From Aphrocallistes beatrix (taxonomy: Eukaryota; Porifera; Hexactinellida; Sceptrulophora; Aphrocallistidae), in assembly GCA_963281255.1 (NCBI GenBank), contig OY725489.1:1240001-1304000 (forward strand): a stretch of DNA of 64,000 nt, written 5' to 3'. Shown piece after piece: positions 3,916-64,000 of this stretch. Under the pieces are notes generated by a model. That model saw only the letters and a program-made list of their open reading frames with translations. It had not been told where the DNA came from and made no database searches. The translations under genes and the position numbers were made by a program. Positions within the stretch are counted from its first letter, which is position 1; every line of letters begins with the position of its first letter.

Positions 3916-6900
3916 TCATTGGATCGAAATCAATTCATTATTCAAATCATTCTGATTGTAGACATGTGGTTCAAAGGTGTTATCACTGTCAATCAAATTC
4001 TCGAAATAGATCATTTTCTCCTTAACTGAAAAAGTCTTTATGTGTTGGAACAGTTCGCGGGTTGGTTTACCTCCAAGTGCGATTAACTTCTTTTTCAGCG
4101 GTCTACAATAATCCAGAACTTTGAGTTTTACTTCTTTCTCTTTTTTTGAAATATTTTCCTTTGCGAATATCTTCACTGCTATAATTATTGCAAACACTTG
4201 TGTTGCGTTGTTTAGGAAACTGTCCAGATCTCCTAGCACACGAGCTGTCAGAGCTGCTAGTTTTGTAAGGCGAAGTGTCAAGCATTTAATTTCTGCTATT
4301 ATCTCCTTCGTAAGCACTAACTGCACAAGATCTATCACCTCTAGCTTCAAGCCAGCTGGTGTTATGAAGGCAGCATTAATCTCCTCATCTCGATGCCCTT
4401 GTAGCATGGCAAACTTTAGATGAGTTGGCAATCCATAGAGAATGTGCAACAAAGTCTGAGACCAGTTGTTTGAGAGAGGAATTTCAATTTGCCCCACGCT
4501 TAACTGCTCGTCGTCAGAAATGAACCTAGTGATGTCCCTGGTCACAATAGTGAATTTGGAAGATGGTTCCAAAGGAATTCGGTGAATTTCTAAACTCCCA
4601 TACGTAAATGAAAGCAACTTAAGGCGCTGGGAGTTAGTAATCTCATTAGTAATGTAACAGCGATTGACAGGTGGATGAGCTTCCAGATTTTGAATAATAC
4701 TTAATCTTTTCTCTTTAAAATATTCTTCATCTGGACTTAGAAGGTGGTTTCCACCAAAATATTTCCCTTCGAGAGCAAACTTTTGTCCCTGTAGACAAAT
4801 TGGTCTGATGAAGTTCTTAATTTTCTGCAGATCATAATTGTGTGGCTTATCTATCAATAATACTGCTGCATCACCAAATAGTGAGTTGATATCGTTCTCA
4901 ATTCTGCTATCATCTGTCAAGTGCGTGTATACGTCCATAGGATCGATTATCTCAAAGGGATCATTGGGAATTAGGATTAGAGATCCGCTGTGCCTTCCAA
5001 TCCATGTCATCTGGTGTCGTTCTCCAGTCTGACCTTTGTAAGAGAACCCTTCGTAGCGGTCCTTATCCCAAAAGTAAACTCTTGCCCCTAACAATTCAAA
5101 CAATCTCTGCCACAACACGAACTCCTTCCTGGTTATTGAGCGATCTGTAACGAAGAGAATATCTGCAGGAGGGTTTGAAGGAATGTAGAAGGGTATTACA
5201 CGAATTGATTCTTGCTGGTACTCGATTAGCTTATCCCTCAACAAGAGATCCACTTGGATTGGACATCTATCGAATAGTTCTGCCTTATTCGACATTGCTA
5301 CATTGAACTCTATTAACAAGGTCATATTGGAATCTACACGATCGATATCGACATAAAAACTATCTAGGATGTTGGGGTCATAATGGATTCTGTAGAACGT
5401 AGAGGAAGAAACGTTTGCACAGGGAGAAAGCCGTTTGTCGAAATGTATTCTCAGTGCTAACTTTCCACCAGATCCATCACAGTTGCCATATGGTAGAGTG
5501 GAGATATTTTTCAGAGTAATATTTATTGATCCTTGCTCTCCCCTGCCTAGGTTTTTTGGCAGTACAATCTCATTAATTTTTACTGGGTATTGAACAATAA
5601 GTTTGTGTACTGTTTTAGAGCTCTCGAATGGCCTGCCAAGGAGGTCAACTCTTGTTTCGAAGTATGCTTCACCAAGATAGGGCCCTTGGGTATTAGGTGG
5701 AGGCACGTCGTAAACTCTTCCATGGTATTCTTGTGTAATAGTTAACGTTTGTTGCTCCTTTAAACTAGGCAACTCAAATTTCGTTGGCTGGAATTTTACC
5801 GTCGCTGTGGGCACCATTGATACCAATGCGCCTTCAGGGAGTGTCATATTCCCGATGTTAACTAATGTAAATCCTGTCACTGTAATTTGTTCATTCGGCT
5901 CAAAAATCCCATCATTAACTGCTGAGGTGATGACAAGACTCGTTGGATCAACTTTGACCTCGAATCTATAAGCGGATTGCTCGATGACACTTTGCCTATC
6001 TGGACTAAGCAACACAAACAACAACCCTCCGTTAACACCTCTTATTCCGTTATTTCCAGGATCTCCATCTCCTCCTCTATTCCCCCTTATTCCAGGAAAT
6101 CCACTACATCCAGGGGATCCAGATGGAACACTCCCATGTACTGTTGAGCTCCCATGTCCTCCTGGCCCCCCATGACCTCCTGATCCTCCTTCACCACCCT
6201 CACCTCCCAATCCTGGATGTCCCCCTATCCCAGGATCCCCCGAGTTAACTGCCACTTCAACTAAGTGAAGCAATCTTGGATCGCAAGTCTGGATGGCACA
6301 ATAGCCACCATTACCTGAATTGCCCGCATCTCCACCTCTCCCTCCATTTCCACCTGTTCCTCCCTTTCCTCCATTGCCGCCCTTACCACCATCTCCACCA
6401 GCTGAAGCTTGATCATCTGCATCACCCCCACTTTCACCTCTCCCACCTCTACCTCCATTACCCCCTCTGCCTCCATCTCCACCGCAACCGCCACTTCCTC
6501 CGTGTCCACCTCTACCTCCTGAACAATCGACGAATAGACAGTGTTCTCTAGTTTCACCTCCGATGTTAACCACTTCCTGTATGCAACCGCTAATTTCTAG
6601 ATTTTCTGCGTTTCCACTCAAGAATAATAACAAATCAGAGTCATTTGTACCATGTGTTCCATTTGAACCGTTGGTCCCCGGTTCACCATGACCCCCGTAG
6701 CCCCCATCTCCTCCTGAATGACCTGAATCTGAAAATCTAGAACAACCGCGGCGTCCTGAAGATCCATTATTTCCAGTCATCCCGTTTATGCTATGTGGGC
6801 CATTTACGCCATCAATACCTTGTGCCACAATCCAGACACCCCATTTTTCCTTCTTCCTTATCACTCTATCCCTATGGTAAGATATCGCGTTGGGGGTTTG

Positions 6901-7803
6901 GTCCACCTGTGGCAAGGTTACTTCTTTCCTATCAGGCCCATACACTATTTGCTTGCACTCGATAATGGGATCTGGGTGTCTAGGAGGCCGTGGGTCTTGA
7001 TCATATGTTTGCTGTTGGTTGTGATCGATGTAGAGAGAACATTTGGTGAGGGGGTCCCATAACTCTTGTACTCCTTGCTGGAGATTGACTTCTGTTCCGA
7101 AACCGATATTGATAAGTACATGGATCGGTGGGCCCAGGGGAGGGAGGAACGTGTCATGTTGATCTCGATTTGAGACAGCTTCTCCGTCTTGCAAACTCGT
7201 CAATTGAGTGAGAGTAAGTTCCTTCATCTCTTGTTGGAGCTTGCAGGATGGTTCCTGTGCATACTTGTTCACCTTATCTTCTGTGTATTGAGGAGGAGTG
7301 AGTTCTTTCGACGGATCCGCTGCTTGTGACAATAATGCCTTACTAATATTCTCTGCCGTTTGTAGGGGCTCAACTGCATGTGTTATATCCCATATGCCAG
7401 CCCAACGTAGTTCCATTTCCTTTTCTTCGACACCGAGAACAGGAGAATAGAGACCTCTCCCAACAGCTCCCAAGCTCGCCATTAACCAACGCTGTTGCAC
7501 GATATCCTTCATGCGAAATGTCGTTTTCCCTTTATACTTTACTTTCACTCCGAGGAATTTTTCTGGATTATGAGGATCATCGTCAATGAATTCCACCATC
7601 ATACTACCGTCACTGACATTTGGGACATCAAATAGCTGTTCTATCTTATCTTCATAATTGTCAAGCACTCGATAAGCTGTGGTTTCTTGAATTATTTTTA
7701 ATCTAGCATTCGTCCACCGCTTCAGAATTCTAGTTTTTCTGCTGCATAAGCATTGGTATTCATGTATAGCCCCCGGACGGAGTTCTGATGTCACTTGACT
7801 CAT
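3916..7803 (-). CDS. Giant Gly-Gly-X repeat protein, copy 1 (function unknown)
   Basis: One open frame of 1295 codons without introns. The ATG at 7803 has a purine at -3 and matches the start of copy 2. The layout, by rough residue, is as follows. A conserved, mostly hydrophilic region spans 1-328. Gly-rich block I spans 329-386. A short insert (LLLFLSG...HCLFVDC) follows. Gly-rich block II (428-500) consists of GGX triplets. The insert GYCAIQTCDPRLLHLVEVAV follows, then Gly-rich block III (521-592). From about 595 comes a beta-rich part with NDGIFEPNE near 630. From about 881 (DILFVTDRS) an alpha/beta-looking C-terminal part runs to an amphipathic helical tail. There is no signal peptide or clear membrane span, so I infer an intracellular protein and not a collagen. 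From memory, fungal and invertebrate proteins combine a GGX block with an 'xDGxxEPGE' beta domain as an uncharacterised family (perhaps Pfam DUF7932); this is unverified. The near-identical copies at 33760 and 61016 support a real gene. Confidence 0.9.
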   Translation of the reverse strand: MSQVTSELRPGAIHEYQCLCSRKTRILKRWTNARLKIIQETTAYRVLDNYEDKIEQLFDVPNVSDGSMMVEFIDDDPHNPEKFLGVKVKYKGKTTFRMKDIVQQRWLMASLGAVGRGLYSPVLGVEEKEMELRWAGIWDITHAVEPLQTAENISKALLSQAADPSKELTPPQYTEDKVNKYAQEPSCKLQQEMKELTLTQLTSLQDGEAVSNRDQHDTFLPPLGPPIHVLINIGFGTEVNLQQGVQELWDPLTKCSLYIDHNQQQTYDQDPRPPRHPDPIIECKQIVYGPDRKEVTLPQVDQTPNAISYHRDRVIRKKEKWGVWIVAQGIDGVNGPHSINGMTGNNGSSGRRGCSRFSDSGHSGGDGGYGGHGEPGTNGSNGTHGTNDSDLLLFLSGNAENLEISGCIQEVVNIGGETREHCLFVDCSGGRGGHGGSGGCGGDGGRGGNGGRGGRGESGGDADDQASAGGDGGKGGNGGKGGTGGNGGRGGDAGNSGNGGYCAIQTCDPRLLHLVEVAVNSGDPGIGGHPGLGGEGGEGGSGGHGGPGGHGSSTVHGSVPSGSPGCSGFPGIRGNRGGDGDPGNNGIRGVNGGLLFVLLSPDRQSVIEQSAYRFEVKVDPTSLVITSAVNDGIFEPNEQITVTGFTLVNIGNMTLPEGALVSMVPTATVKFQPTKFELPSLKEQQTLTITQEYHGRVYDVPPPNTQGPYLGEAYFETRVDLLGRPFESSKTVHKLIVQYPVKINEIVLPKNLGRGEQGSINITLKNISTLPYGNCDGSGGKLALRIHFDKRLSPCANVSSSTFYRIHYDPNILDSFYVDIDRVDSNMTLLIEFNVAMSNKAELFDRCPIQVDLLLRDKLIEYQQESIRVIPFYIPSNPPADILFVTDRSITRKEFVLWQRLFELLGARVYFWDKDRYEGFSYKGQTGERHQMTWIGRHSGSLILIPNDPFEIIDPMDVYTHLTDDSRIENDINSLFGDAAVLLIDKPHNYDLQKIKNFIRPICLQGQKFALEGKYFGGNHLLSPDEEYFKEKRLSIIQNLEAHPPVNRCYITNEITNSQRLKLLSFTYGSLEIHRIPLEPSSKFTIVTRDITRFISDDEQLSVGQIEIPLSNNWSQTLLHILYGLPTHLKFAMLQGHRDEEINAAFITPAGLKLEVIDLVQLVLTKEIIAEIKCLTLRLTKLAALTARVLGDLDSFLNNATQVFAIIIAVKIFAKENISKKEKEVKLKVLDYCRPLKKKLIALGGKPTRELFQHIKTFSVKEKMIYFENLIDSDNTFEPHVYNQNDLNNELISIQ

Positions 7804-8320
7804 TGCGTTGTTGTGTTATCTTAGCTAGTTTTGTATATGTACAATATTCCTCTGAGGTACCTATTATGCACTAGACCAGGGGGTTCTTAACCTTTTTGTC
7901 CTTACGCCCCCCTTTTATAACCATTAAATCATTATGCCCCCTTGACATTGAAATCTATTTGTTAAATGTACATATTTTAATTATTTTGATTAATTGAGTA
8001 ACTGATTAATTGATTGGGTAAAGTATTATTGAATTAGTGGAGGGTTGTAAATACCGGTTAGGGAGGTAGAAATTGTCTATAGGATATATACATACACACT
8101 GAAGCCCCATTATAACCAAGTGGGTTATAACGAGGTGGTTATTTGTCCCTTTTAAAATCAGGTTCTAAATTCACATTATGGATGATATTCGAGGCACCAA
8201 GCTTCAAATGTAAGTACTAGCCATGTCAAAAATTAAATGATTTATACACTTGAAAAAATCAAAATGCTAAATACGAAATCCCAAGTAAAATCCCTGACCA
8301 TAATGTAATCCTAATGGCTA
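7804..8320. other. Upstream region of gene copy 1 with a hAT-like end
   Basis: The first 70 bp upstream of the ATG match the upstream of copy 2 up to GCACTAGA. There a CAGGGGGTTCTTAACC sequence starts at 7877, which looks like a hAT left end, but no matching right end is visible. Near 8100 there is another fragment (AAGCCCCATTATAACCAAG) of unknown origin. No coding signal. Confidence 0.45.
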
Positions 8321-16605: not shown

Positions 16606-17072
16606 CAGGGTTGCCGTGGGAAAGAAATTTCCATTCCCATTCCCATCCCATTCCCACGAGATTTCCCGTGGGAATTCCCATGGGTTTCCCACGTGGGAAT
16701 TCCCATGGGTTTCCCACGTGGGAATTCCCATGGGTTTTCCCATGTGGGAATTCCCATGGGTTTCCCACGTGGGAATTCCCATGGGTTTTCCCATGTGGGA
16801 ATTCCCATGGGTTTCCCACATGGGAATCCCATGGGTTTTCCCACATGTGAATCCCATGGGTTTTCCCACATGGGAATTCCCATGGGTTTCCCATGGATTC
16901 TCCCACGTGGGAATTTCCATGTATTTAGTAAATCTGGCAGGTTTGGGTTCACTTCCTGAATGGGATTTGGAATTGTCTTCAAGCTCTATTCCCCTGAAGG
17001 AAAGGACTGGGAATGGGAATTAATTCCGATTCCAATGAATGGGAATTGGAATTAAGTCCTTAATGTAATTGG
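16606..17072. mobile_element. Insertion with palindromic minisatellite
   Basis: Compared with GGTCC copy 2, extra sequence starts at CAGGGTTGCCGTGGG and is flanked by CAATTAC on both sides (16599-16605 and 17073-17079). It is probably a MITE whose TTCCCA-rich body has expanded. The right end is eroded. Confidence 0.65.
16650..16918. repeat. Minisatellite built from three palindromes
   Basis: Units of about 25 bp combine CCCACGTGGG, GGGAATTCCC and CCCATGGG, repeated about ten times with small variants. The array is open in several frames on both strands only because of its periodicity. Confidence 0.93.
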
Positions 17073-17715: not shown

Positions 17716-17960
17716 CTGAAGTATAAGATTTTGTAGAGTTCAACGTTTCAAGTAATTTGGTTATTTCCTGTGTTTTCGTATTAAATTCCTTTTCAATCTC
17801 TTCCACTCGAGAGAGGAGTGAGTTCTCTCTGATCCGGAGAGCTTCGTGTGACCGCTTGAAGCTGTCGTGTATAGCTTTAGAGTTTGAGATATCTGATCAA
17901 TGAAGTCTGTATTCAAATGTACACTGCTTGCAAATAATCTCAATTGAGAATTTATTGGAT
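17716..17960 (-). pseudogene. NHL-family coiled-coil fragment
   Basis: Translated in pieces, this matches the N-terminal coiled coil of the broken NHL gene at 48221-49089: NTDFIDQISQT on one side and EEIEKEFNTKTQEITKLL on the other. A base change or deletion puts the two pieces in different frames. No NHL blades follow, and the fragment ends in the GGTCC element. The sequence upstream (to about 18560) also matches the upstream of the 48221 gene, so this is a duplicated gene start. Confidence 0.7.
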
Positions 17961-18560
17961 ACAATAGATTAATGGGAGAGACTAAAAGTTGTAAAATTTA
18001 TGGTGGACTCAAAGATTTGTCTGCTTGCACCATTTATTCAATCCAGAGTAACAAAAATACTCCCTTGTTCAAATATTAACAGGTCCGCATTTTTATCTCT
18101 CGCTCAAAAAAGGAGAATGACTTATAGAATATGCAAAAAATAGCATAATTATCAAAGAAATGCTGAACTAGGTCAAACCATCTGGAAAAAATACCAATCC
18201 TATATATAAATATTAGAAACATATAAACTACCCTGACAGAAGTATTTGACTACCACGGAAACCGCCGTACAAATAATATGGATCTATTCATAAAAGAACA
18301 TGTACTCAAACTGTAAGGAATATTCTATTTCAGGGCTGTCCAACTATATTTACTTCGGGCCGCAACTGCTTCATACCATTTAGTGGCGGGCCGCAATACA
18401 GGGGCGTGCACTCGGGATGGGTATGGATAGAGGCATTTTGGAAGCAACGCGGGCCGCCTGTTGGACAGCGCTGTTCTATTTTATATTTCAAATTCGCAAA
18501 CTACACATCCGAATTACTCGATTTTAAAACTTTCAACCTAAATACGCATTCTCATTTATA
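17961..18560. repeat. Duplicate of the NHL upstream region (about 49090-49520)
   Basis: Long near-identical stretches (for example TAAAAGTTGTAAA..., CATAAAAGAACATGTACTC) occur in the same order as at 49130-49510. This copy contains the 143-bp hAT MITE at 18331-18473, absent from the other. Confidence 0.85.
18331..18473. mobile_element. Short hAT MITE with empty site at about 49480
   Basis: Ends CAGGGCTGTCCAACT and AGTTGGACAGCGCTG-type (here TGTTGGACAGCGCTG). The exact 8-bp duplication TTCTATTT is at 18323-18330 and 18474-18481. The duplicated segment near 49480 reads TATTCTATTTTAT with no insertion. The same element occurs at 29731-29895. Confidence 0.95.
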
Positions 18561-18912
18561 AAATTATAAACCTGTGCCACTTGTCACTAATCGCCAACAT
18601 ATTTAATGGCCGTGAGTGGACAAGTATATTCAGGTACCAAAGGTAGAGAGTATTTTAAAAGTTAGGAGTTAGTAATTGAGGTGAGGCTCCAATTACGAGT
18701 AATTACAAGTTAGAATTTGTAGATTAAGAATTTGAAATAAAAAATGGAGTACTATTTCTTATAAATTGAGTACATATTCCTTTAAGAATAAAAACACTCA
18801 AATCTATTTATATGGGGGTTTTCGTGGTGGTCGAATACTTATGTCCGGGTAAAGTATGCAAACAATAGTATTACCTGAAGAATAATTCATTATCTAGAGC
18901 AGATGTCCTGAT
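18561..18912. other. AT-rich 3' flank of the NHL gene
   Basis: No repeat or coding pattern that I recognise. Confidence 0.35.
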
Positions 18913-20124
18913 CTAATAGTACATATGCAATCTAAACTTCGTATTACTAGAAGTACAAATAATCTTATTGCTTGAAGTAAGAACAATTGATTCAGGAGAT
19001 ACCTTCTTATCTCCCTTCTGATTACCTCCCAACGTGTGTAGGAGAACGCCATCTTGAGAGAATACCTTGATGCATCCTGCTACATAGTCACCAATAAGAA
19101 TATTGTTCAGTTGATCAAAACAGAAACAATATGCTAATTCTACTTGACAGTTTCCGCCCCGTTTATGAGTAATCAGTGAGCGAATTTTATTTCCTGCTTT
19201 GCTGAACACATGTAGTACTGGATTGTCTGTATCACTCAGTACATACAGTTCATCCTTCAGGAACTTGAGATCAATTGGTTCGGTCATAGAAGAGTGTTGA
19301 ATTATTTGTTTAAACTGCAGGTTACAATCCATTACTACAACTCGATTGTTATTACAATCAGCCAAATAGACATCTCCATTAGAAGCTACATAGATATTCG
19401 AAGGGTCACGAAATTGATTCTGTCCAGATCCCATTTTACCCACGTTAGATATGAATCGATAATCCGGCAGCTTGTAACGGAACATAGCACATTGCATGGA
19501 ATCGCTTACATACAGGTTATCCCCATTGAAACCAACACCCTCTGGATAGACTAACTGTTTCTGGCCAAAAGATTTGATGTACTCTCCTTCTTCAGAGAAA
19601 ATGCTAACTCTGCCTGATTTAAACCTAGTATAATTCGTAACGTATATGAGATGTTTAGTCTCGCAAAAAGCTAAGCCAGGACACATATTAAGCTGTCCAG
19701 GCCCGCCCCCTTTCTCACGAATAGAGATGCGTGGCTGTGTGAGTGCGGGGTAATTGGGGATAGGAGGGACCTCCTTCATAATCAGTTGTCCCAGCTGTGA
19801 GATGGCTTCCTCCACCTCCCGGGTCTCGCATTGAAACGAAAGTTCCATTGGTTGATCAATCACCCCAGTTATATCCTCTCTCAACGAGTGGAGAATATTT
19901 TCTTCCATCTTATCTCCTACCAGCTCTTTGACCTCAAGCAGTTGTTCTCTTGATTTGACACAGGCTTTCTTTTCTGCTCGCATCTCATCTTTCTTTCCTC
20001 TGTATTCTAGGAGCACCGCTACGCGTCGCTTGTTCACGGCAAAAACCAAATTATCGAAAGTTTGTTTTATTGCCGCCTCCACTGGGTCCATAGCGACCGA
20101 AGGTTCAGGAAATCTAGCTGCCAT
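18913..20124 (-). CDS. Coiled-coil NHL-repeat protein (TRIM-NHL-like, no RING seen)
   Basis: 403 codons from the ATG at 20124 (MAARFPEPSVAMDPVEAA). Residues about 15-90 are charged and heptad-like (KREQLLEV-type), suggesting a coiled coil. After a linker, about 150-400 forms NHL-type blades: GRVSIFSEEGEYIKSFG, YPEGVGFNGDNLYVSD, FRDPSNIYVASNGDVYLAD and NNRVVVMD follow the blade consensus. In TRIM-NHL proteins the propeller binds RNA or protein partners. Here no RING or B-box precedes the coil, so a ligase role is not supported. The frame stays open upstream to 20379, but that part translates repeat DNA. An alternative ATG at 20184 would add a hydrophobic stretch (NIWIIYLIILVLA); the paralog at 50540-50890 has GTG there, so I prefer 20124. 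This is the only intact NHL gene in the window. Confidence 0.85.
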   Translation of the reverse strand: MAARFPEPSVAMDPVEAAIKQTFDNLVFAVNKRRVAVLLEYRGKKDEMRAEKKACVKSREQLLEVKELVGDKMEENILHSLREDITGVIDQPMELSFQCETREVEEAISQLGQLIMKEVPPIPNYPALTQPRISIREKGGGPGQLNMCPGLAFCETKHLIYVTNYTRFKSGRVSIFSEEGEYIKSFGQKQLVYPEGVGFNGDNLYVSDSMQCAMFRYKLPDYRFISNVGKMGSGQNQFRDPSNIYVASNGDVYLADCNNNRVVVMDCNLQFKQIIQHSSMTEPIDLKFLKDELYVLSDTDNPVLHVFSKAGNKIRSLITHKRGGNCQVELAYCFCFDQLNNILIGDYVAGCIKVFSQDGVLLHTLGGNQKGDKKVSPESIVLTSSNKIICTSSNTKFRLHMYY

Positions 20125-20195
20125 GTTAGCTAGTACGAGAATTATTAGGTAAATTATCCATATATTAAAAAGACCATTGCGCATGATCAATTGTC

Positions 20196-22828: not shown

Positions 22829-23660
22829 ATGGCAACACCCTTGATCGTTGCAATACCTCCACTTCAGCCAGGTCAACGCATCGAAGATTGGGAACCCATC
22901 TTCCGGGCATCAATTGGAGCAATGGACCCTGTAGCAGCTGTTAAGTATTTAATTTACCCGCCCATGTTAACCGCCCGGAATATGAACGGACGGTAGTACC
23001 CGAGGCCATCTAGGAAGACTCTCTAGATAACGCCTTTCGTCTACTTTCTCGACCCTCCAATAGACATCTACGAGTCTACTCGGAAATTCTATGAGATGAT
23101 GTGGCCAAGTGTGGCGATTACGTAGACGATTATTTCGTTCGTATGGTCAAAGAAGCCAAGCGAGCAGGGCATACCAATCGTCACGCCAGTGTAAACCTGG
23201 TGACCCAACTTCCATATTAAGTGCGCCCGGCGTGTAAACAGTGGATCAACGAGTCGACATAGAACGTATCTGATACAAGAACCTTCATCAAGAAGGTCCG
23301 CACCCCACTGGCAGAAAGGGGAATCCCGGTGGACACTGGCTATTGGCAAGTCAACACAGTGAAGGTAACCAGCATCCGAGGCAAATATGAAGACTACGAT
23401 CCAAGTTTGGGGCATCTGAGGAAGAAGTCACGCCTAAGGTGCAAACCACAAGAGTCAGTGATGGTAGGCAAGTGAGACAGAACACGATAACCCCTACAAG
23501 TGTTTTACTTGTGGCCAGAAAGGACATGGGTGGCGCCAATGTCCAGAAAGGTCATGCAACAGGTGCGGGCGCAAAGACACGAAGTAAGTCGGTGTCCGAG
23601 AACGCTAGGGCCGCAGAGGTGAGGGCAATCGAGAGGTGCAAGGAGGGTCTATCAGGGTAA
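22829..23660 (+). pseudogene. gag remnant of gypsy copy 1
   Basis: It starts MATPLIVAIPPLQPGQRIED and drifts out of frame near 22950, reaching a TAG at about 22997, while the neighbouring frame keeps a gag-like reading. A CCHC knuckle (C-x2-C-x4-H-x4-C; CFTCGQKGHGWRQC) lies near 23498-23540, and a second knuckle is broken by a base loss. Gag would package the element RNA. Confidence 0.8.
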
Positions 23661-26600
23661 GGTGATGGTAATTGAAGAACCGGACCACAGCCAGTCTACG
23701 ATTGGAAGAAGAGCTAAGGCCACGTATGGCGAGGATTCTGTCACATTAAAAATTGATATAGCCGGGAATCAAGTAAACGCGGTACTGGATACTGGAGCGA
23801 AACCCTCGGTCATTGATTACAAGACACTGACGGGACTGGGGTTTAGGAATAATATTAAAGCAATGAAGAGCAAGGTATTCGGACTTTGTCAGAACCCCGT
23901 ACAAGTGCTTGGAAGAGTTGAGTTAGAGGTGAAGATAGACCAGGAAAAAGCAGCCGCATGTTTCTACTTCCTGGACAGCGAGGAGCCCACACTTCTCCTT
24001 GGTAGAGAATTCATGGCATGCTTTGATCGGATTACGTTTGATTTCCGAAATGGGAGAATTCGTCTGGGAAATGTTTGGAATCCTATCGAATCTACTTTAA
24101 CGGGAGGCACCCCCCTCTTTTGGGCTCGCACAGCCATGTCAGATACAACTATAGCGGCGGTCGGATGTCGTAACAAGACTTTCGATATTAACCTTGAGTT
24201 GAGCTCCGATGAACATAAAGAACTCACTCACCTCTTGAACGATTACACTGACCTGTCTGCAGTCGATCCGAGAAAGCCCGGCTAGACAACCTGGTGTAAA
24301 CATGCGATAGACACAGGAGATAATACTCCGATCAAAGAAAGGGCGAGGAGGATGCCGCCCAATTGGGAAAGCGAAGTAGAACGCCAATTAGATGAAATGC
24401 TCGCAAATGGAGTTTGCCAGTCATATCATTTCCCTTGGACCGCCAACGCAGTACTTGTAAAAAAAAGATGGCAGCCTACGCTTCACTATAGACTATCGAC
24501 AACTGAACAATGTGACCAATAAGGACACGTACAGTCTTCCCAACATTCAAACTATTTCGGATAAACTTGAAGGTAGCCACTATTTCTCCTTTATCGATGT
24601 GGCGTCGGCATATTGGAGTGTTCCCGTGGAAAAGACGGACGTTGAGAAGACTGCTTTTCACACACCGCGTGGACAATACGAAATTGCGGTTATGCCATTT
24701 GGCCTGTGTAACTCGCAGGCCACATTCCAGAGACTCATGGACATTATCCTAGAGAAGGTACCTAGAGCGGAGCCTTACGTTGATGATTGCTGCGTTTTTT
24801 CAAGGAATTTTAAGGAGCATCTAGACGACCTGCGAGTGACCCTGGAAAGAATGCGAGAAGGGAGAGTGAAGTTGAGGGGAGACAAGTGCCATTTTGGCTA
24901 TACCGAAGGAGAGTTTCTAGGGCACCACATATCGTCCAAAGGAAGATCTGCCACACAAGGAGCGGCCGATAAGCTAGCTCAATTCCCAGTTCCCCACTCA
25001 GTGAAAGAATTACAGTGCTTCATTAGGAGCCTCAATTACTATAGAAGCTACATCCCGAAGTTAGCTAATATCGCCCAGCCCCTATATGCCCTGACCAAGA
25101 AGGGTGCATAATAGGAGTGAGACGACAAATGCCATGTAGCCTTCAACACCTTGCGCCATGCTTTAGTCGAGGATCCAGTTTGTCTCGCATATCCGGTGTG
25201 GGGCAAAGAATGTACGTAGAAGCTGACGCCAGCTCAGAGGGAGTAGCCGCGGTGCTATCACAAAAAAGCAACGAGTCTGGCATACTGAAACCTATCAGCT
25301 TCTTCTCCTCGGCATAGTTAAAATCGCAGAAGAATTACAGCGCCAGACTGCTTGAAGCGTGAGCATTAGTAGCGGCAACCAGGAAGTGGGAGATTTACTT
25401 CAAGTCCCCTCCAGAGGTCATCCTACTTACCGACCATAACCCCCTCCCTTGGTTGCGGAACCAAAAAGACCCCCGTCACACATTAAGATACCGTATCGCA
25501 TAGAGTACCGACCCGGAACTCAGAACATATTACCCGACTATTTGAGCAGAAAACCTAGCTTCGAAATAGACAGGGACGTCAACTGTGATGATTCCTTTGA
25601 GGAGAAGATTAATGTCATAGATAGCTGCAAAGACTGGATGGCTGAAATGAAAGGAGAACAGAGAAAGGATAAACTACAAGATGCGATCAGGCAGCTGGTG
25701 GATGCAGGTGCAGTTTGGAGAGGTAAATTTAAGGGTATTACCCGCCATATGTGCGTCAAAGAGGGAATATTGTACTTTGATAGGCGAATTGTTGTACCTG
25801 GATCACTACAAGCAGACACCTTTCATAGAGTGCATGCCGGAATGCATGGTCAAGCCAGAACTCTCCAGCTCATCCGAAGGAGTATTTTCTGAATCAGGCT
25901 AACATAGGATGTCAAGAGGCATTGCAGTTCTTGTATCACCTGCCAAAAGTCAAAACCTTCCCGTAAACCTAAAGAACCGCTCGAGATATTTGACTGCGAT
26001 ACGACGCAGCCAGGCAAAGCTATCAGCATGGACGTTGGCACCTTGCCGTGGTCGGATGGTGAGTATAGATATTTCCTTCTCATTGTCGACCTCTTTTCTC
26101 ATCCTGTCGAAGCCGTACCTTTGAAGGACCAGACTGCGAGATATCACCCAGGCTTTCCTGGAGGGTTGGGTATATCGTGGGCACAGAGTGCCCAACATTT
26201 TAGTAACTGACCAAGGAAAGAACGTTGATGGTACCGTAATACAATGCCCATCGACATGGCCATCGCCCAAGAGTCCTTAGACAAGACCAGAGCACATACG
26301 AGTACCTTACTACGTTGCTCAAAAAGAAAGAAGAATTGAATGATATTGCACACCTTAATCAGGAGAATCGGCGGGCTGTAGTTAAGAAGCAGTAGACAGA
26401 GGGAAAGGGGTTTCAGGAGTCAAGCAGGGAGACCTGTGTTGGTTAGAAAAGAACAGCGTAGCGATTCCCTGGACGTAATGTTCGAATGTCCATTCAAAGT
26501 GCTTGACAGACGAGGTGTGATTGTGCAAATAGAAATAGGGACTTGGAGAGAAGTGGGTATACTTGAATCGGTGCAAAAAATACAAACCTCACCTTGTGAC

Positions 26601-26842
26601 GACCCCAGCCGAACCCCCAGAACAAAGGCGACAGCTAGACACAGAAGTGATGGAGCCTGATCCGGATGTGACTGTACAAGCCCGAGACGCGTCGGTAACT
26701 GACCCGGGAGAGAACCCGAACGAAGTGGTTAACGACACAACCAGACGCTACCCTGCACGCAGCCGGAAACCCAAAGCGTACGAGGGCTTTGTCCCCTGGG
26801 AGGAGGTGCCTACGAACTATTTCCGGGCGAGTAATTTAGCTT

Positions 26843-33759: not shown

Positions 33760-36700
33760 TCATTGGATTGAAATCAATTCATTATTCAAATCATTCTGAT
33801 TGTAGATATGTGGTTCAAAGGTGTTATCACTGTCAATCAGATTCTCGAAATGGATACTTTTCTCCTTAACTGAAAAACTCTTTATGTGTTGGAACAGCTC
33901 GCGGGTTGGTTTACCTCCAAGTGCGATTAACTTTCTTTTAATCGGTCTGCAATAATCCAGAACTTTGAGCTTTACTTCTTTCTCTTTTCTAGAAAGATTT
34001 TCCTTCGCGAATATCTTCACTGCTGTAATTATTGCAAACACTTGTGTCGCGTTGTTTAGGAAACTGTCGAGATCTCCTAGCACACGAGCTGTCAGAGCCG
34101 CTAGCTTCGTAAGGCGAAGTGTCAAGCATTTAATTTCTGCTATTATCTCCTTCGTAAGCACTAACTGCACAAGATCTATCACCTCTAACTTCAAGCCAGC
34201 TGGTGTTACGAAGGCAGCATTAATCTCCAAATCTCGATGCCCTTGTAGCATAGCAAACTTTAAATGAGTTGGTAATCCATAGAGAATGTGCAACAAAGTC
34301 TGAGACCAGTTGTTTGAGAGAGGAATTTCAATTTGCCCCACGCTTAACTGCTCGTCGTCAGAAATGAATCTAGTGATGTCCCTGGTCACAATAGTGAATT
34401 TGGAAGACGGCTCCAAAGGAATTCGGTGAATTTCTAAACTCCCATACGTAAATGAAAGCAAATTAAGGCGCTGGGAGTTAGTGATCTCATTAGTAATGTA
34501 ACAGCGATTGACAGGTGGATGAGCTTCCAGATTTTGAATTATACTTGATTTTCTCTCCATAATATCTTCTTCGTCTGGATTTAGAAGATGGTTTCCACCA
34601 AAATCTTTCCCTTCGAGAGCAAACTTTTGTCCCTGTAGACAAATTGGTTTGACGAAGTTCTTAATTTTTCGCAGATCATGATTGTGTGGCTTATCTATCA
34701 ATAACACTGCTCCATCACCAAATAGTGAGTTGATATCGTTCTCAATTCTGCTATCATCTGTCAAGTGCGTGTATACGTCGATAGGATCGATTAGCTCAAA
34801 GGGATCATTGGGAATTAGGATTAGAGATCCGCTGTGCCTTCCAATCCATGTCATCTGGTGTCGTTCTCCAGTCTGACCTTTGTAAGAGAACCCTTCGTAA
34901 CGGTTCTTATCCCAAAAGTCAACTCTTGTCCCTAACAATTCAAACAGTCTCTGCCACAACACGAACTCCTTCCTGGTTATTGAGCGATCTGTAACGAAGA
35001 GAATATCTGTAGGAGGGTTTGAAGGAATGTAGAAGGGTATTACACGAATTGATTCTTGCTGGTACTCGATTAGCTTATTCCTCAACAAGAGATCCACTTG
35101 GATTGGACATCTATCGAATAGTTCTGCCTTATTCGACATTGCTACATTGAACTCTATTAACAAGGTCATATTGGAATCGACACGATCGATATCGACATAA
35201 AAACTATCTAGGATGTTGGGGTCATAATGGATTCTGTAGAAAGTAGAGGAAGAAGCGTTAGCACAGGGAGAAAGCCGTTTGTCGAAATGTATTCTTAGTG
35301 CTAACTTTCCACCAGATCCATCACAGTTGCCATATGGTAGAGTGGAGATATTTTTCAGAGTAATATTTATTAATCCTTGCTCTCCCCTACCTAGGTTTTC
35401 TGGCAGTTCAATCTCATTAATTTTTATTGGGTATTGAACAATAAGTTTGTGTACTGTTTTAGAGCTCTCGAATGGCCTGCCAAGGAGGTCAACTCTTGTT
35501 TCGAAGAATGCCTCACCAAGGTAGGGCCCTTGGGTATTAGGTGGAGGCACGTCGTAAACTCTTCCATGGTATTCTTGTGTAATAGTTAACGTTTGTTGCT
35601 CCTTTAAACTAGGCAACTCAAATTTCGTTGGCTGGAATTTTACTGTAGCTGTGGGAACCATTGATACCAATGCGCCTTCAGGGAGTGTCATATTCCCGAT
35701 GTTAACTAATGTAAATCCTGTCACTGTAATTGGTTCATTCGGCTCAAAAATCCCATCATTAACTGCTGAGGTGATGACAAGGCTCGTTGGATCAACTTTG
35801 ACCTCGAATCTATAAGCGGATTGCTCGATGACACTTTGCCTATCTAGACTAAGCAACACAAACAACAACCCTCCGTTAACACCTCTTATTCCGTTATTTC
35901 CAGGATCTCCATATCTTCCTCTAGTCCCCTTATTTCCATGAGGGCCACTTTTTCCAGTGGGTCCAGGTGGATGACCCCTACCCCCAAAGCCTCCTCGCCC
36001 CCCATGTCCTCCCTCACCACCCTTACCTCCCAATCCTGGATGTCCCCCTATCCCAGGAGCCCCCGAGTTAACTGCCACTTCAACTAAGTGGAGCAATCTT
36101 GGATCGCAAGTCTGGATGGCACAATAGCCACCATTACCTGAATTGCCCGCATCTCCACCTCTCGCTCCATTTTCACCTCTTCCTCCCGTTCCTCCATTGC
36201 CACCCCTACCACCCTCTCCACCCCTCTCTCCACTACCACCATACCCACCAGTCCCACCTCTACCCCCATTACCCCCACTGCCTCCATCTCCACCACGACC
36301 GCCACTTCCTCCGTGTCCACCTCTACCTCCTGAACAATCGACGAATAGACAGTGTTCTCTAGTTTCATCTCCGATGTTAACCACTTCCTGTATGCAATCG
36401 CTAATTTCTAGATTTTCTGCGTTTCCGCTCAAGAATAATAACAAATCAGAGCCATTTGTACCATGCATTCCGTTTGAACCGTTGGTTCCCGGGTGACCAT
36501 GACTCCCATAGCCCCCTTTTGCTCCTGATTTTGAAAATAGAGAACCACCGTCGCGTCCCGAAGATCCATTATTTCCAGTCTTCCCGTTTATGCCTTGTAG
36601 ACCATTTACGCCATCAATACCTTGTGCCATAATCCAAGCACCCCATTTTTCCTTATTCCTTATCGCTCTATCCATATGGTAAGATATCGCGTTGGGGGTT

Positions 36701-37608
36701 TGGTCCACCTGCGGCAAGATTACCTCTTTCCTATCAGGCCCATACACTATTTGCTTACACTCGATAATGGGATCTGGGTGTCTAGGAGGCCGTGGGTCTT
36801 GATCATATGTTTGCTGTTGGTTGTGATCGATGTAGAGAGAACATTTGGTGAGTGAGTCCCATAACTCTTGTATTCCTTGCTGGAGATTGATTTCTGTTCC
36901 GAAACCGATATTGATAAGTACATGGACCGGTGGGCCCAGGGGAGGGAGGAACGTGTCATGCTGATCTCGATTTGAGATAGCTTCTCCGTCTTGCAAACTC
37001 GTCAATTGAGCGAAAGTAAGTTCCTTTATCTCTTGTTGGAGTTTGCAGGATGGTTCCTGTGCATACTTGTTCACCGTATCTTCCGTGTATTGAGGAGGAG
37101 TAAGTTCTTTCGACGGATCCGCTGCTTGTGACAATAATGCCTTACTGATATTCTCTGCCGTTTGTAGGGGCTCAACTGCATGTGTTATATCCCATATGCC
37201 AGCCCAACGTAGTTCCATTTCCTTCTCTTCGACACCGAGAACAGGAGAATAGAGACCTCTCCCAACAGCTCCCAAGCTCGCCATCAACCAACGCTGTTGC
37301 ACGATATCCTTCATGCGAAATGTCGTTTTTACACTTCCATACTTGTACTTTACTTTCACTCCGAGGAATTTCTCTAGATCATGAGGATCATCATCAATGA
37401 CTTTCACTATTATACTACTAACATTTGAGACATCAAATAGCTCTTCTATCTTATCTTCATAATTGTCAAGCACTCGAAAACTTGTGGTTCCTTGCATTAT
37501 TTTCAATCTAATATTCGTCCACCGCTTCAGAATTTTTGTTTTTCTGCTGCATAAGCATTGGTATTCGTGCATAGCCCCCGGATGGAGTTCTGATGTCACA
37601 TGACTCAT
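33760..37608 (-). CDS. Giant Gly-Gly-X repeat protein, copy 2 (function unknown)
   Basis: 1282 codons, single exon, ATG at 37608 (A at -3). Same architecture as copy 1. Gly-rich blocks lie at about 330-385, 426-493 and 516-580, with the same two inserts between them. The beta-rich part (NDGIFEPNE) and the C-terminal part starting DILFVTDRS are nearly identical to copy 1. Differences cluster in the Gly-rich blocks, where whole triplets are gained or lost in frame, and in a few N-terminal residues (for example an inserted YGSV-type segment near residue 90). The upstream region matches copy 1 for about 70 bp. No frameshift or stop, so this copy looks functional. It is flanked downstream by an LTR remnant and a HelB element shared with copy 3. 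Function unknown; intracellular by absence of a signal peptide. Confidence 0.92.
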   Translation of the reverse strand: MSHVTSELHPGAMHEYQCLCSRKTKILKRWTNIRLKIMQGTTSFRVLDNYEDKIEELFDVSNVSSIIVKVIDDDPHDLEKFLGVKVKYKYGSVKTTFRMKDIVQQRWLMASLGAVGRGLYSPVLGVEEKEMELRWAGIWDITHAVEPLQTAENISKALLSQAADPSKELTPPQYTEDTVNKYAQEPSCKLQQEIKELTFAQLTSLQDGEAISNRDQHDTFLPPLGPPVHVLINIGFGTEINLQQGIQELWDSLTKCSLYIDHNQQQTYDQDPRPPRHPDPIIECKQIVYGPDRKEVILPQVDQTPNAISYHMDRAIRNKEKWGAWIMAQGIDGVNGLQGINGKTGNNGSSGRDGGSLFSKSGAKGGYGSHGHPGTNGSNGMHGTNGSDLLLFLSGNAENLEISDCIQEVVNIGDETREHCLFVDCSGGRGGHGGSGGRGGDGGSGGNGGRGGTGGYGGSGERGGEGGRGGNGGTGGRGENGARGGDAGNSGNGGYCAIQTCDPRLLHLVEVAVNSGAPGIGGHPGLGGKGGEGGHGGRGGFGGRGHPPGPTGKSGPHGNKGTRGRYGDPGNNGIRGVNGGLLFVLLSLDRQSVIEQSAYRFEVKVDPTSLVITSAVNDGIFEPNEPITVTGFTLVNIGNMTLPEGALVSMVPTATVKFQPTKFELPSLKEQQTLTITQEYHGRVYDVPPPNTQGPYLGEAFFETRVDLLGRPFESSKTVHKLIVQYPIKINEIELPENLGRGEQGLINITLKNISTLPYGNCDGSGGKLALRIHFDKRLSPCANASSSTFYRIHYDPNILDSFYVDIDRVDSNMTLLIEFNVAMSNKAELFDRCPIQVDLLLRNKLIEYQQESIRVIPFYIPSNPPTDILFVTDRSITRKEFVLWQRLFELLGTRVDFWDKNRYEGFSYKGQTGERHQMTWIGRHSGSLILIPNDPFELIDPIDVYTHLTDDSRIENDINSLFGDGAVLLIDKPHNHDLRKIKNFVKPICLQGQKFALEGKDFGGNHLLNPDEEDIMERKSSIIQNLEAHPPVNRCYITNEITNSQRLNLLSFTYGSLEIHRIPLEPSSKFTIVTRDITRFISDDEQLSVGQIEIPLSNNWSQTLLHILYGLPTHLKFAMLQGHRDLEINAAFVTPAGLKLEVIDLVQLVLTKEIIAEIKCLTLRLTKLAALTARVLGDLDSFLNNATQVFAIITAVKIFAKENLSRKEKEVKLKVLDYCRPIKRKLIALGGKPTRELFQHIKSFSVKEKSIHFENLIDSDNTFEPHIYNQNDLNNELISIQ

Positions 37609-53693: not shown

Positions 53694-53695
53694 TA

Positions 53696-57332: not shown

Positions 57333-59410
57333 TTGAGGATCCAGTTTGCCTCGCATATCCGGTGTGGGACAAAGAAATGTACGTAGAAGCTGACACCAGC
57401 TCAGAGGGAGTAGCCGTGGTGCTATCGCAAAAAAAGCAAAGGGTCTGGCATACTGAAACCTATCAGCATCTTCCCCTCGGCATTGTCAAAATCCGAGAAG
57501 AATTACAGCGCCGGACAGCTTGAAGTGTGGGCGTTAGTAGCGGCAACCAGGAAGTGTGAGATTTACCTCAAGTCAGCTCCAGAGGTCATCCTACTTACCG
57601 ACCATAACCCCCTCCCTTGGTTGCGGAAGCAAAAAGACCCCCGCCACACATTTTCCCAATGACTAATGGAGCTCGAGGAGATACCGTATCGCATAGAGTA
57701 CTGACCCGGAACTCAGCACAGATTACCCGACTATTTGAGCTGGAAACCTTGCTTCGAAATAGACAGGGACGTCAACTGTGATGATTTCTTTGAGGAGAAG
57801 ATTAATGCCATAGATAGCTGCAACGACTGGATGGCTGAAATGAAAGGAGAACAGAGAAAGGATAAACTAATTCAAAATGCGATCAGGCAGCTGGCAGATA
57901 CAGTAGTAGGTTGTATATTTATTTGCCCAATCTCTGCACCTGTTTCCTTTGTAAAAAAGTGCTTACTATAGTTGAGTCTGCGATATAAATGATTTAATGA
58001 TACCACATTAAAAGCTGTCGAATATTCTACATAGTATTCTAAAATATCTTGAATCATGTGCAGTTTGGAGAGGTAAATTTAAGTGGACTACCCGCCTTCT
58101 GGGCGTAAGAGGGAATATTGTACTTCGATAGGCAAATTGTTGTGCCTAGGTCACTGCAAGCAGACACCCTTCATAGAGTGCATGCCAAAATGCATTTCGG
58201 TCAAACCAGGACTCTCCAGCTCATCCGAAGGAGTTTTTTCTGGATCAGGCTAGCACGGGATGTCAAGAGGCATTGCCGTGCTTGTATCACCTGCCAAAAG
58301 TCAAAACCTTCCCGTAAACCTTAAGAACCGCCCAAGATATTTGACTGTGTTATGACGCAGCCAGGCGAAGCTGTGCGACCTCTTTTCTCATCCTGTCGAA
58401 GCCGTACCTTTGAAGGACCAGACTGCGAGATCCATCACCCAGGCTTTCCTGGAGGGTTGGGTATATCGTGGGCACAGAGTGCCCAACATTTTAGTAACTG
58501 ACCAAGGAAAGAACGTTGATGGTACCGTAATACATGAACTATGCACCGAGTTAGGAATACAGAAGCGCCATATCGCCCCACATCACCCAGAATCGGACGG
58601 TACGGCCGAAAGACATATTGGCTTTGTCAAGTAGGTGTTATGAGAAGTTTGTTGCTGGAACGGACCCTTAGAAAAGAGTCTTGGCCATCCCTGTTACAGG
58701 AAGTTACATTCTATTGTAACAATCTCAATAAGGCGTCCACGAATGTTTCCCCGCACTTGTTGACATTCGGACGGCAGCCGGGAGCGCCCATCTACATGGC
58801 CATCGCCCAAGAGTCCTTAGACAAGACCAGAGCACAGACGAGTACCTTACTACGTTGCGCAAAAAGAAAGAAGAATTGAATGATATTGCACGCCTTAATC
58901 AGGAGAATCGGCGGGCTGTAGTTAAGAAGCAGTAGACAGAGTGAAAGGGGTTTCAGGAGTCAAGCAGGGAGACCTGTGTTGGTTAGAAAAGAACAGCGCA
59001 GCGATTCCCTGGACGTAATGTTCGAAGGTCCATTCAAAGTGCTTGACAGACGAGGTGTGATTGTGCAAATCAATAGAGACTGAAGAGAAGTAGGTGCACT
59101 TGAATCGTTCAAAAAAAAACTCACCTCGTGACGATCCCAGCCGAACCCCCAGAACAAAGGCGACAGCTAGACACAGAAGTGATGGAGCCTGATCTGGATG
59201 TGACTGGACAAGCCCGATACGTGCCCAGCACCGAGGTAACTGACCCGGGAAAGAGCCCGAACGAAGTGATTAACGACACAACCAGATGCTACACTGCACG
59301 CAGCCGGAAGCCCAAAGTGTACGAGGGCTCTGTCCCCTGGGAGGAGATGCCTACGAGCTATTTCCGGGCGAGTTGAGACGATTCAGAAGATTCATGAGAA
59401 GGGGGGATGA

Positions 59411-61015: not shown

Positions 61016-64000
61016 TCATTGGATCGAAATCAATGCATTATTCAAATCATTCTGATTGTAGACATGTGGTTCAAAGGTGTTATCACTGTCAATCAAATTC
61101 TCGAAATAGATCATTTTCTCCTTAACTGAAAAACTCTTTATATGTTGGAACAGCTCGCGGGTTGGTTTACCTCCAAGTTCGATTAACTTCTTTTTCATCG
61201 GTCTGCAATAATCCAGAACTTTGAGCTTTACTTCTTCTCTTTTTTTGAAATATTTTCCTTTGCGAATATCCTCACTGCTATAATTATTGCAAACACTTGT
61301 GTCGCGTTGTTTAGGAAACTGTCGAGATCTCCTAGCACACGAGCTGTCAGAGCCGCTAGTTTTGTAAGGCGAAGTGTCAAGCATTTAATTTCTGCTATTA
61401 TCTCCTTCGTGAGCACTAACTGCACAAGATCTATCACCTCTAGCTTCAAGCCAGCTGGTGTTATGAAGGCAGCATTAATCTCCAAATCTCGATGCCCTTG
61501 TAGCATGGCAAATTTTAGATGAGTTGGTAATCCATAGAGAATGTGTAACAAAGTCTGAGACCAGTTGTTTGAGAGAGGAATTTCAATTTGCCCCACGCTT
61601 AACTGCTCGTCGTCAGAAATGAATCTAGTGATGTCCCTGGTCACAATAGTGAATTTGGAAGATGGCTCCAAAGGAATTCGGTGAATTTCTAAACTCCCAT
61701 ACGTAAATGAAAGCAACTTAAGGCGCTGGGAGTTAGTGACCTCATTAGTAATGTAACAGCGATTGATAGGTGGATGAGCTTCCATATTTTGAATAATACT
61801 TAATCTTTTCTCTTTAAAATCTTCTTCATCTGGTTTTAGAAGATGGTTTCCACCAAAATCTTTCCCTTCGAGAGCAAACTTTTGCCCCTGTTGACAAATT
61901 GGTTTGATGAAGTTCTTAATTTTTCGCAGATCATGATTGTGTGGCTTATCTATCAATAATACTGCTGCATCACCAAATAGTGAGTTGATATCGTTCTCAA
62001 TTCTGCTATCATCTGTCAAATGCGTGTATACGTCGATAGGATCGATTATCTCAAAGGGATCATTGGGAATTAGGATTAGAGATCCGCTGTGCCTTCCAAT
62101 CCATGTCATCTGGTGTCGTTCTCCAGTCTGACCTTTGTAAGAGAACCCTTCGTAGCGGTTCTTATCCCAAAAGTCAACTCTTGTCCCTAACAATTCAAAC
62201 AGTCTCTGCCACAACACGAACTCCTTCCTGGTTATTGAGCGATCTGTAACGAAGAGAATATCTGCAGGAGGGTTTGAAGGAATGTAGAAGGGTATTACAC
62301 GAACTGATTCTTGCTGGTACTCGATTAGCTTATCCCTCAACAAGAGATCCACTTGGATTGGACATCTATCGAATAGTTCTGCCTTATTCGACATTGCTAC
62401 ATTGAACTCTATTAACAAGGTCATATTGGAATCGACACGATCGATGTCGACATAAAGACTATCTAGGATGTTGGGGTCATAATGGATTCTGTAGAAAGTA
62501 GAGGAAGAAGCGTTAGCACAGGGAGAAAGCCGTTTGTCGAAATGTATTCTTAGTGCTAACTTTCCACCAGATCCATCACAGTTGCCATATGGTAGAGTGG
62601 AGATATTTTTCAGAGTAATATTTATTGATCCTTGCTCTCCCCTACCTAGGTTTTCTGGCAGTTCAATCTCATTAATTTTTACTGGGTATCGAACAATAAG
62701 TTTGTGTACTGTTTTAGAGCTCTCGAATGGCCTGCCAAGGAGGTCAACTCTTGTTTCGAAGTATGCTTCACCAAGGTAGGGCCCATGGGTATTAGGTGGA
62801 GGCACGTCGTAAACTCTTCCATGGTATTCTTGTGTAATATTTAACGTTTGTTGCTCCCTTAAACTAGGCAACTCAAATTTCGTTGGATGGAATTTTACCG
62901 TCGCTGTGGGAACCATTGATACCAATGCGCCTTCAGGGAGTGTCATATTCCCGATGTTAACTAATTTAAATCCTGTCACTGTAATTGGTTCATTCGGCTC
63001 AAAAATCCCATCATTAACTGCTGAGGTGATGACAAGGCTCGTTGGATGAACTTTAACCTCGAATCTATAAGCGGATTGCTCAATGACACTTTGCCTATCT
63101 GGACTAAGCAACACAAACAACAACCCTCCGTTAACACCTCTTATTCCGTTATTTCCAGGACCTCCATCTCCTCCCTTTATTCCAGGAAATCCACTGCTTC
63201 CAGGGGGTCCAGATGGACCACCGCTACCCCCATATCCTCCTGGCCCCCCATGTCCTCCTTCACCACCCTCACCTCCCAATCCTTGATGTCCCCCTATCCC
63301 AGGATCCCCCGAGTTAACTGCCACTTCAACTAAGTGGAGTAATCTTGGATCGCAAGTCTGGATGGCACAATAGCCACCATTACCTGAATTGCCCGCATCT
63401 CCACCTCTCGCTCCATTTCCACCTGTTCCTCCCTTTCCTCCATTGCCGCCATCACCACCATTCCCACCTCTTTCAGCACTACCTTCTCCTCTTTCGCGCC
63501 CTCTTCCACCACTCCCACCTCTACCCCCATCACCCCCTCTGCCTCCATCTCCACCGCGACCGCCACTTCCTCCGTGTCCACCTCTACCTCCTGAACAATC
63601 GACGAATAGACAGTGTTCTCTAGTTTCACCTCCGATGTTAACCATTTCCTGCATGCAACCGCTAATTTCTAGATTTTCTGCGTTTCCGCTCAAGAATAGT
63701 AACAAATCAGAGCCATTTGTACCATGCGTTCCAAATGAACCGTTGGTCCCCGGGTGACCATGACCTCCATGGCCCCCAACTCCTCCTGGACGACCTGAAC
63801 CTCCTGTAGATCCAGAACTACCGCTGTGCCCCGAAGATCCACTATTTCCAGTCTTCCCGTTTATGCCATGTGTCCCATTTACGCCATCAATACCTTGTGC
63901 CACAATCCAGGCACCCCATTTTTCCTTCTTTCTTATCGCTCTATCCCTATGGTAAGATATCGCGTTGGGAGTCTGGTCCACCTGCGGCAAGGTTACTTCT
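61016..64000 (-). pseudogene. Giant Gly-Gly-X repeat protein, copy 3 (partial, one frameshift)
   Basis: Enters the window from the right in frame (EVTLPQVDQTPNAISYH) and matches copies 1 and 2 through the three Gly-rich blocks, the beta-rich part and the C-terminal part. Near 61230-61240 a T is missing from a TTCTTTCTC run that is intact in copy 1. The main frame therefore ends KKEKK with a stop at about 61228, and the last 70 or so codons lie in another frame, ending at 61016 with the usual LISIQ. The rest of the frame (920 codons) is undamaged. The loss is therefore recent, or it is a homopolymer-type sequencing error, and the gene could be functional with a shorter tail. The N-terminal third lies outside the window. 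Confidence 0.85.

Follow-up and report, generated by a model that had tools for sequence, protein, structure and literature searches.

A 64,000-nucleotide stretch of contig OY725489.1 of the glass sponge Aphrocallistes beatrix (C2:1240001-1304000 in our contig numbering, hereafter the window) contains three copies, d, c, and e, of a gene whose protein carries the Pfam domain DUF7932 (PF25560). The three genes form an array that arose when a unit of about 30 kb, carrying one DUF7932 gene, underwent segmental tandem duplication; the copies are on the same strand, and their neighboring DNA recurs in the same order with a comparable divergence. The open frames of the DUF7932 genes are maintained by selection, and the family is real and not a product of chance. 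What is added to the known DUF7932 family is a PH-like N-terminus, a PPxY motif, a degenerate WW domain, and two immunoglobulin-like (Ig-like) beta-sandwiches. DUF7932, the PPxY motif, and three glycine (Gly) blocks are evident from the sequence, and the other domains are predicted. The explanation that we favor, to which we give somewhat less than an even chance, is that the protein is a membrane-recruited intracellular scaffold with a glycine-rich rod.

The DUF7932 gene family

The genome amounts to 100.5 Mb, divided among 28 contigs. Searching all of it with the protein returned nine matches, of which seven are genes, one is the out-of-frame end of copy e, and one is a Gly-rich match at C2:818652. 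The last was excluded from the family, as it is a Met- and Gly-rich frame that is absent from the DUF7932 search list. The genome search with the Pfam model found seven places, all over the cut-off at 49.9-55.4 bits; DUF7932 lies above the Pfam gathering cut-off (27 bits) in 7/7 copies, most of them over model positions 8-130 of 130. An earlier sequence-only reading of this DNA had proposed a genome-wide count, and the count is seven copies, to be read as a lower bound. Four are on the window's contig and three are dispersed, one each on C16 (54% identity), C3 (58%), and C1 (34% over the part that the search aligned, 30% in our own alignment). The fourth C2 copy, copy a, is on the plus strand about 160 kb from the window copies and is 91% identical. 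The earlier reading knew of no characterized homolog. None was found here either, but the protein is not an orphan, as it is a member of a named Pfam family. In NCBIfam, copy c had four matches, all scoring far under the cut-off, and the C1 copy had none.

Six of the seven copies are full-length single frames, and copy e is frameshifted near its end. The expectation of three single exons of about 1290 codons was therefore borne out for copies c and d and not for copy e, which has a 1216-aa frame. When adjoining DNA was added, its ATG was found beyond the window edge at window-equivalent 64878. The last 70 or so codons of copy e are out of frame and appear as a match at 61019-61255 (C2:1301019-1301255) to residues 1204-1282, 84% identical. 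This frameshift may be a recent loss or may mean that the C-terminus is dispensable. Copies c, d, and e are 89.6-91.0% identical in pairs. Compared to copy c, the other two window copies are 94% identical from DUF7932 onward and 87-90% identical in the N-terminal region. The constant architecture described before, an N-terminal region, three Gly blocks with two inserts, an 'NDGIFEPNE' region, and a 'DILFVTDRS' tail, was present in 3/3 window copies. Despite the frameshift, the substitutions of copy e still look constrained, with a ratio of nonsynonymous to synonymous divergence (dN/dS) of 0.39-0.50 against the other three C2 copies.

Among the four C2 copies (six pairs), synonymous divergence (dS) is 0.097-0.113 and whole-gene dN/dS is 0.38-0.50. 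The regional dN/dS values are 0.18-0.30 for the tail, 0.26-0.44 for the N-terminus, 0.21-0.68 for the DUF7932 surroundings, and 0.61-0.95 for the Gly region. The family had been called expanding. Tandem duplication agrees with this, but the duplications of the array are not very recent because dS between copies is about 0.10-0.11.

Domain layout of the protein

The profile and structure searches that the sequence-only reading had suggested gave DUF7932, PH-like, WW-like, and Ig-like matches. Two AlphaFold models, N-terminal and C-terminal, were made with seven sequences each, and their confidence is low to moderate. In the N-terminal model, the predicted local distance difference test (pLDDT) averages 46; the 10-residue blocks of residues 14-111, predicted to have a PH-like order of strands and helix, score 62-76, except for residues 71-80, which fall to 45. 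Foldseek returned 708 matches at E <= 10 with this model, of which the best had an E of 2.4e-3. Among the best 50 of the 708, all but those at ranks 9 and 13 (48 chains) have a PH-superfold domain, as judged by their titles and known folds; the count is of whole chains, whichever domain of a multi-domain chain was aligned.

Comparison of the whole N-terminal profile with PDB sequences found WW proteins, with a best E of 0.005. A profile of residues 235-282 from six copies gave 52 PDB matches at E <= 10, 11 of them at E <= 0.01. All but one of the 52 are WW proteins as judged by name and known domains, and the best E is 6.1e-7 (0.043 for the best single stretch). The second half of the segment, strands 2-3, resembles the WW domains of Suppressor of Deltex, YAP, NEDD4L, and KIBRA. 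The PPxY motif and the WW-like segment are found in the same six of seven copies, and the C3 copy has neither.

The earlier reading had placed the protein inside the cell, and no hydrophobic N-terminus was found that would speak against it. Over the seven copies, the 19-residue hydropathy mean near the N-terminus is at most 0.76, and its maximum anywhere is 1.24-1.76. As judged from these sequences, the DUF7932 protein is likely cytosolic.

In the Gly blocks, the glycines are retained and the remaining residues drift. With gapped columns omitted, 63 of the 94 Gly-majority columns in the three blocks are invariant over the seven copies, compared to 5 of the 87 other columns. For blocks 1, 2, and 3, the invariant Gly-majority columns are 10/21, 32/43, and 21/30, and the invariant other columns are 1/27, 4/26, and 0/34. 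Insertions and deletions among the four C2 copies are mostly 3 residues long in block 3 and 1 to 6 residues long in blocks 1 and 2, and because of the latter the Gly-block period is not kept everywhere. The Pfam Collagen model (PF01391) matched copy c at 21.2 bits and copy e at 20.4 bits, below its cut-off of 27.2 bits, and gave no match to copy d up to E 1. Collagen matches at E <= 5 were seen in 6/7 copies, and in the search of the window copies a weak match had an E of 2.4e-4.

For the C-terminal model, the mean pLDDT is 57, with residues from about 891 to 1101 (about 210) below 50, too low a confidence for a structure comparison of this alpha/beta part, followed by helices. Structure comparison of the predicted beta-sandwiches produced 417 matches at E <= 0.001, with protein 4.2, transglutaminases, and integrins at the top. 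No PDB sequence matched the C-terminal profile up to E 10.

Table 1. Positions of the genes, protein parts, and duplicated pieces in the window
Feature	Position	Strand	Remark
DUF7932 gene copy d	3916..7803	-	1295 aa, single open frame
DUF7932 gene copy c	33760..37608	-	1282 aa, single open frame
DUF7932 gene copy e, 3' part of 1216-aa frame	61228..64000	-	frame runs on to window-equivalent 64878
PH-like order of seven strands and a helix, copy c residues 14-111	37276..37569	-	predicted, AlphaFold model
PPxY motif (PPQY), copy c residues 171-174	37087..37098	-	found in 6/7 copies
Degenerate WW domain (predicted), copy c residues 235-282	36763..36906	-	profile match to PDB WW proteins
Gly block 1 (mostly G-X-Y spacing), copy c residues 330-386	36451..36621	-	
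Gly block 2 (GGX), copy c residues 424-494	36127..36339	-	
Gly block 3 (GGX, then G-X-Y), copy c residues 513-579	35872..36072	-	
Predicted pair of Ig-like beta-sandwiches including DUF7932, copy c residues 603-857	35038..35802	-	AlphaFold model
DUF7932 (PF25560), copy c residues 611-726	35431..35778	-	Pfam
Alpha/beta, then helical tail, copy c residues 869-1282	33763..35004	-	predicted, AlphaFold model
Conserved upstream ~75 bp	7804..7876 (copy d), 37609-37684 (copy c)	-	common to the four C2 copies
NHL-gene region of unit 1 (open reading frame 18913-20379)	17769..20193	-	colinear with unit 2
Reverse-transcriptase element of unit 1	23374..26832	+	colinear with 55541-59373 of unit 2 (RVT_1 open reading frame 56358-57332)

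Origin of the array

The three window genes start 29.8 and 27.3 kb apart, all on the minus strand, which confirms the earlier description of a same-strand tandem family with copies about 27-30 kb apart. When the window was compared with itself, the order of gene, NHL-gene region, reverse-transcriptase element, short intergenic stretch, and gene of unit 1 recurred in unit 2. Identity between the two units is 92.2% for the gene, 89.7 and 94.1% for the NHL region, 92.7, 88.4, and 91.8% for the reverse-transcriptase element, and 91.2% for the intergenic stretch. Within the NHL region, 17769-18330 corresponds to 48911-49486 of unit 2 and 19855-20193 to 50621-50959, in colinear order, and the NHL repeat itself falls outside these pieces. 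The remaining DNA between the matched pieces is unmatched, mostly owing to the dispersed elements there. Upstream of copy e, four colinear pieces match unit 2 among the matches listed (10 of 23), and this homology extends 5.4 kb upstream of copy e, which corresponds to 8.6 kb in unit 2. The flanking pieces 1220001-1230000, 1230001-1240000, and 1314001-1324000 had no match of at least 250 bases to the window; therefore, the array seems to consist of three units.

The four C2 copies all keep a stretch of about 75 bp directly upstream of the start codon, and further upstream only copies c and e agree. The conserved stretch is possibly a core promoter or 5' untranslated region, and it is the one feature that a retrocopy reading could use. 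An inverted-repeat element with ends like CAGTCGCCATCC is present at about 37703-37848 and at the matching place upstream of copy e, that is, about 95-240 bp upstream of c and e, and it is not present upstream of d and a.

Several repeats were also seen in the window. Arrays of 32-34-bp units with inverted ends (GGACCA...TGGTCC) lie at 20275-20518 and 44472-44685, one per unit. The array at 20275-20518 overlaps the start of the NHL open reading frame, and the first 35 or so codons of that frame are repeat-derived. Nine copies of a 25-bp near-palindromic tandem repeat occupy 16667-16895. The segment 2504-2875 is a dispersed element with ten window matches of at least 300 bases, six direct and four inverted, at 71-89% identity.

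Intronlessness and genome context

Of 78 myosin-head matches in the genome, six span the whole 679-position motor in one open frame (1224-2398 aa), and others are split. According to a genome paper (PMC10282587), single-exon transcripts number 12,409 against 19,578 genes in Aphrocallistes vastus and 9,872 against 16,340 in Oopsacas minuta, compared to 7,075 against 39,245 genes in the demosponge Ephydatia muelleri. O. minuta has 1.59 introns per gene, which another paper calls similar to or only slightly below demosponges (PMC10280926). Because six myosin motors are equally uninterrupted and single-exon genes abound in glass sponges, the lack of introns in the DUF7932 genes is unremarkable in this genome. 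The genome also has five TGF-beta ligand matches and three fibrillar-collagen C-propeptide (COLFI) matches (best E 2.4e-26), and no Wnt match was found, although the controls gave no match either. In a study on O. minuta and A. vastus, Wnt ligands are reported lost and core TGF-beta components apparently unaffected (PMC5684314). The pattern of these three marker families, together with the uninterrupted myosin motors, points to a glass sponge as host.

Relatives in viruses, prokaryotes, and the literature

The best BFVD match to the C-terminal model was a 1137-aa 'DUF7932 domain-containing protein [Terrestrivirus sp.]' (A0A3G4ZNF8), with an E of 9.9e-18 followed by 4.0e-10 for the next match. 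The superposition is poor overall, with a TM-score of 0.29 on the query and a root-mean-square deviation (rmsd) of 39.9. In IMG/VR, no relative was found with the C-terminal profile, the C1 protein, the N-terminal profile, or two DNA patterns. The 10 IMG/VR pattern records had no DUF7932 match at E <= 0.01 and none to the family's own profiles. GTDB contigs gave no relative by C-terminal profile or pattern, with 16 pattern loci matching no family profile, and the plasmid and phage scans found no relative.

PF25560 was over the cut-off in 0/398, 0/297, 0/296, and 0/296 genomes of four phyla and in 0/16 further prokaryote genomes, the center genomes being counted twice across these sets. As a positive control, the same search found seven of seven copies in the host genome, and 14 named controls were silent. 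Matches below the cut-off were listed for 12 genomes, one of them twice (3/16, 1/398, 3/297, 5/296, and 0/296). Two bacterial frames of 1340 and 1363 aa, both without Gly blocks, match the first 36 positions of DUF7932 below the cut-off through NDGI[FY]EPGE. A 968-aa prokaryote frame matches DUF7932 at 21.2 bits (below the cut-off, positions 5-87) and the C-terminal profile at E 0.0089 (among 19 loci). By its sequence, this frame is a possible distant bacterial relative of the beta-sandwich. A literature search for the DUF7932 name found no paper among open-licence PubMed Central papers, and searches there on the protein architecture, on intronless Gly-rich sponge genes, and on polyglycine-II bundles found no relevant title.

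A possible scaffold and its alternatives

The order of the putative domains is PH-like, PPxY, degenerate WW, three Gly blocks with short conserved inserts, two Ig-like sandwiches with DUF7932 probably within the first, and an alpha/beta region that would lead into a helical end. With this layout, the PH-like domain would recruit the protein to the membrane, and the Gly blocks could pack as a single-chain polyglycine-II or collagen-like rod that the inserts would pin. The Ig-like and tail domains may bind partners, and the PPxY and WW-like segments may be an internal clasp or docking sites, so that the whole protein would act as an intracellular scaffold.

Several findings weigh against this explanation. 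The PH assignment depends on a model with a mean pLDDT of 46, no Foldseek match reached E 0.001, and Pfam PH had no match in the seven N-terminal regions up to E 10. Two conserved tryptophans at a set spacing are the hallmark of the WW domain. Here, the second signature tryptophan is Y, D, or V in all six copies with the WW-like segment. The matched stretch does not reach the first; only one tryptophan is nearby, displaced by about 3 residues from the usual spacing, and the C1 copy has F in its place. Pfam WW gave no match up to E 10 in the six segments, and the WW profile was cut out after the first hint of E 0.005. The WW-like segment may bind nothing, and the joint absence in the C3 copy, as one event, is weak evidence that the PPxY and WW-like segments cooperate. 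The rod idea comes from Gly spacing alone, with Collagen below its cut-off (21.2 vs 27.2 bits). Finally, one copy has a segment close to the C-terminus with a hydropathy mean of 1.76, a value at which membrane insertion is conceivable.

Other explanations were weighed against the scaffold. That the family serves immunity or self-recognition and stays variable through tandem duplication is unlikely in our estimation. The high dN/dS of the Gly region, with its indels, next to a constrained remainder would suit such a family, and the A. vastus paper describes a tandem AIG1 cluster that its authors relate to pathogen recognition (PMC10282587). There are only seven genes, though, Pfam finds no receptor domain, and the variable blocks keep most of their glycines and change elsewhere, the pattern expected of a relaxed structural repeat. 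A structural role in spicules or extracellular matrix, silica-associated or collagen-like, is suggested by the G-X-Y-spaced Gly blocks, the weak Collagen matches, and the glass-building host. We consider it rather improbable, given the lack of a hydrophobic N-terminus, the resemblance of the PH- and WW-like parts to intracellular folds, and Collagen scores that are below the cut-off in c and e with none listed for d up to E 1. We set aside silintaphin, a silica protein of demosponges that has a PH domain, as a shared PH-like fold is no evidence.

Exchange of the family between the animal's lineage and giant viruses, in either direction, would account for a Terrestrivirus protein heading the BFVD list and for genes without introns. 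The poor superposition, five IMG/VR scans without a relative, and PH- and WW-like parts that point to a eukaryotic origin make this a doubtful explanation that we would not expect to hold. Retrocopying or transfer from prokaryotes, to which the sequence-only reading had tied the lack of introns, seems very unlikely. Except for the frameshift of copy e, none of the seven copies is interrupted, even at 30% identity, so an ancient founder retroposition would fit; with c and e excepted, the four C2 copies lose their upstream homology about 75 bp from the start codon; and the A. vastus paper puts forward retrotransposition as one way in which single-exon clusters may arise (PMC10282587). On the other side, the neighboring DNA was duplicated colinearly with the gene, copies a and d share 3' DNA to about +384, no poly(A) tract was visible in the 3' flanks examined, and the six myosin motors of the host are uninterrupted as well. 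The array thus shows neither the transcript-limited homology nor the poly(A) tract of processed retrocopies; target-site duplications were not searched. For the C16, C3, and C1 copies, flanking DNA was aligned to the window alone and matched nothing beyond the gene, and retrocopy signs were not examined there. Transfer from prokaryotes is opposed by the absence of any prokaryote genome searched over the DUF7932 cut-off and by the other large host genes that are also uninterrupted.

The favored scaffold could also be part of something broader, an undescribed class of intracellular single-chain collagen-like (polyglycine-II) scaffolds with PH-like membrane recruitment, a PPxY/WW-like clasp, and exchange between animals and giant viruses. 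We think it improbable that all of this holds together. As for the array, nothing about its tandem duplication is out of the ordinary. The DUF7932 family gains a testable domain layout and a link to a giant-virus protein, and an intracellular glycine-rod protein, if true, would be unusual and its structure informative.

Comparison with known systems

All seven copies are over the curated cut-off of Pfam DUF7932; however, that model covers 130 of about 1290 residues, gives no function, and leaves the flanking layout outside. The Terrestrivirus protein A0A3G4ZNF8 is the top viral structural match of the C-terminal half and is similar in length (1137 aa), but its global superposition is poor and the likeness was seen by structure comparison. 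PH-superfold domains (Btk PH, FAK F3, Rpn13 Pru, and ISP3) have the strand and helix order predicted here and dominate the Foldseek list, although none matches the sponge N-terminus at the sequence level. The WW domains of NEDD4-type ligases, YAP, and KIBRA match the second half of the WW-like segment residue by residue; they differ in having the second signature tryptophan, which is Y, D, or V in the sponge protein, and the Pfam WW model does not match the segment. The A. vastus AIG1 cluster is likewise tandem, mostly single-exon (38 of 50 genes), and from a glass sponge, but it encodes an unrelated protein and has 50 genes in a block compared to three here (PMC10282587). Finally, the host resembles other glass sponges in its TGF-beta matches without a Wnt match and in its uninterrupted large genes.

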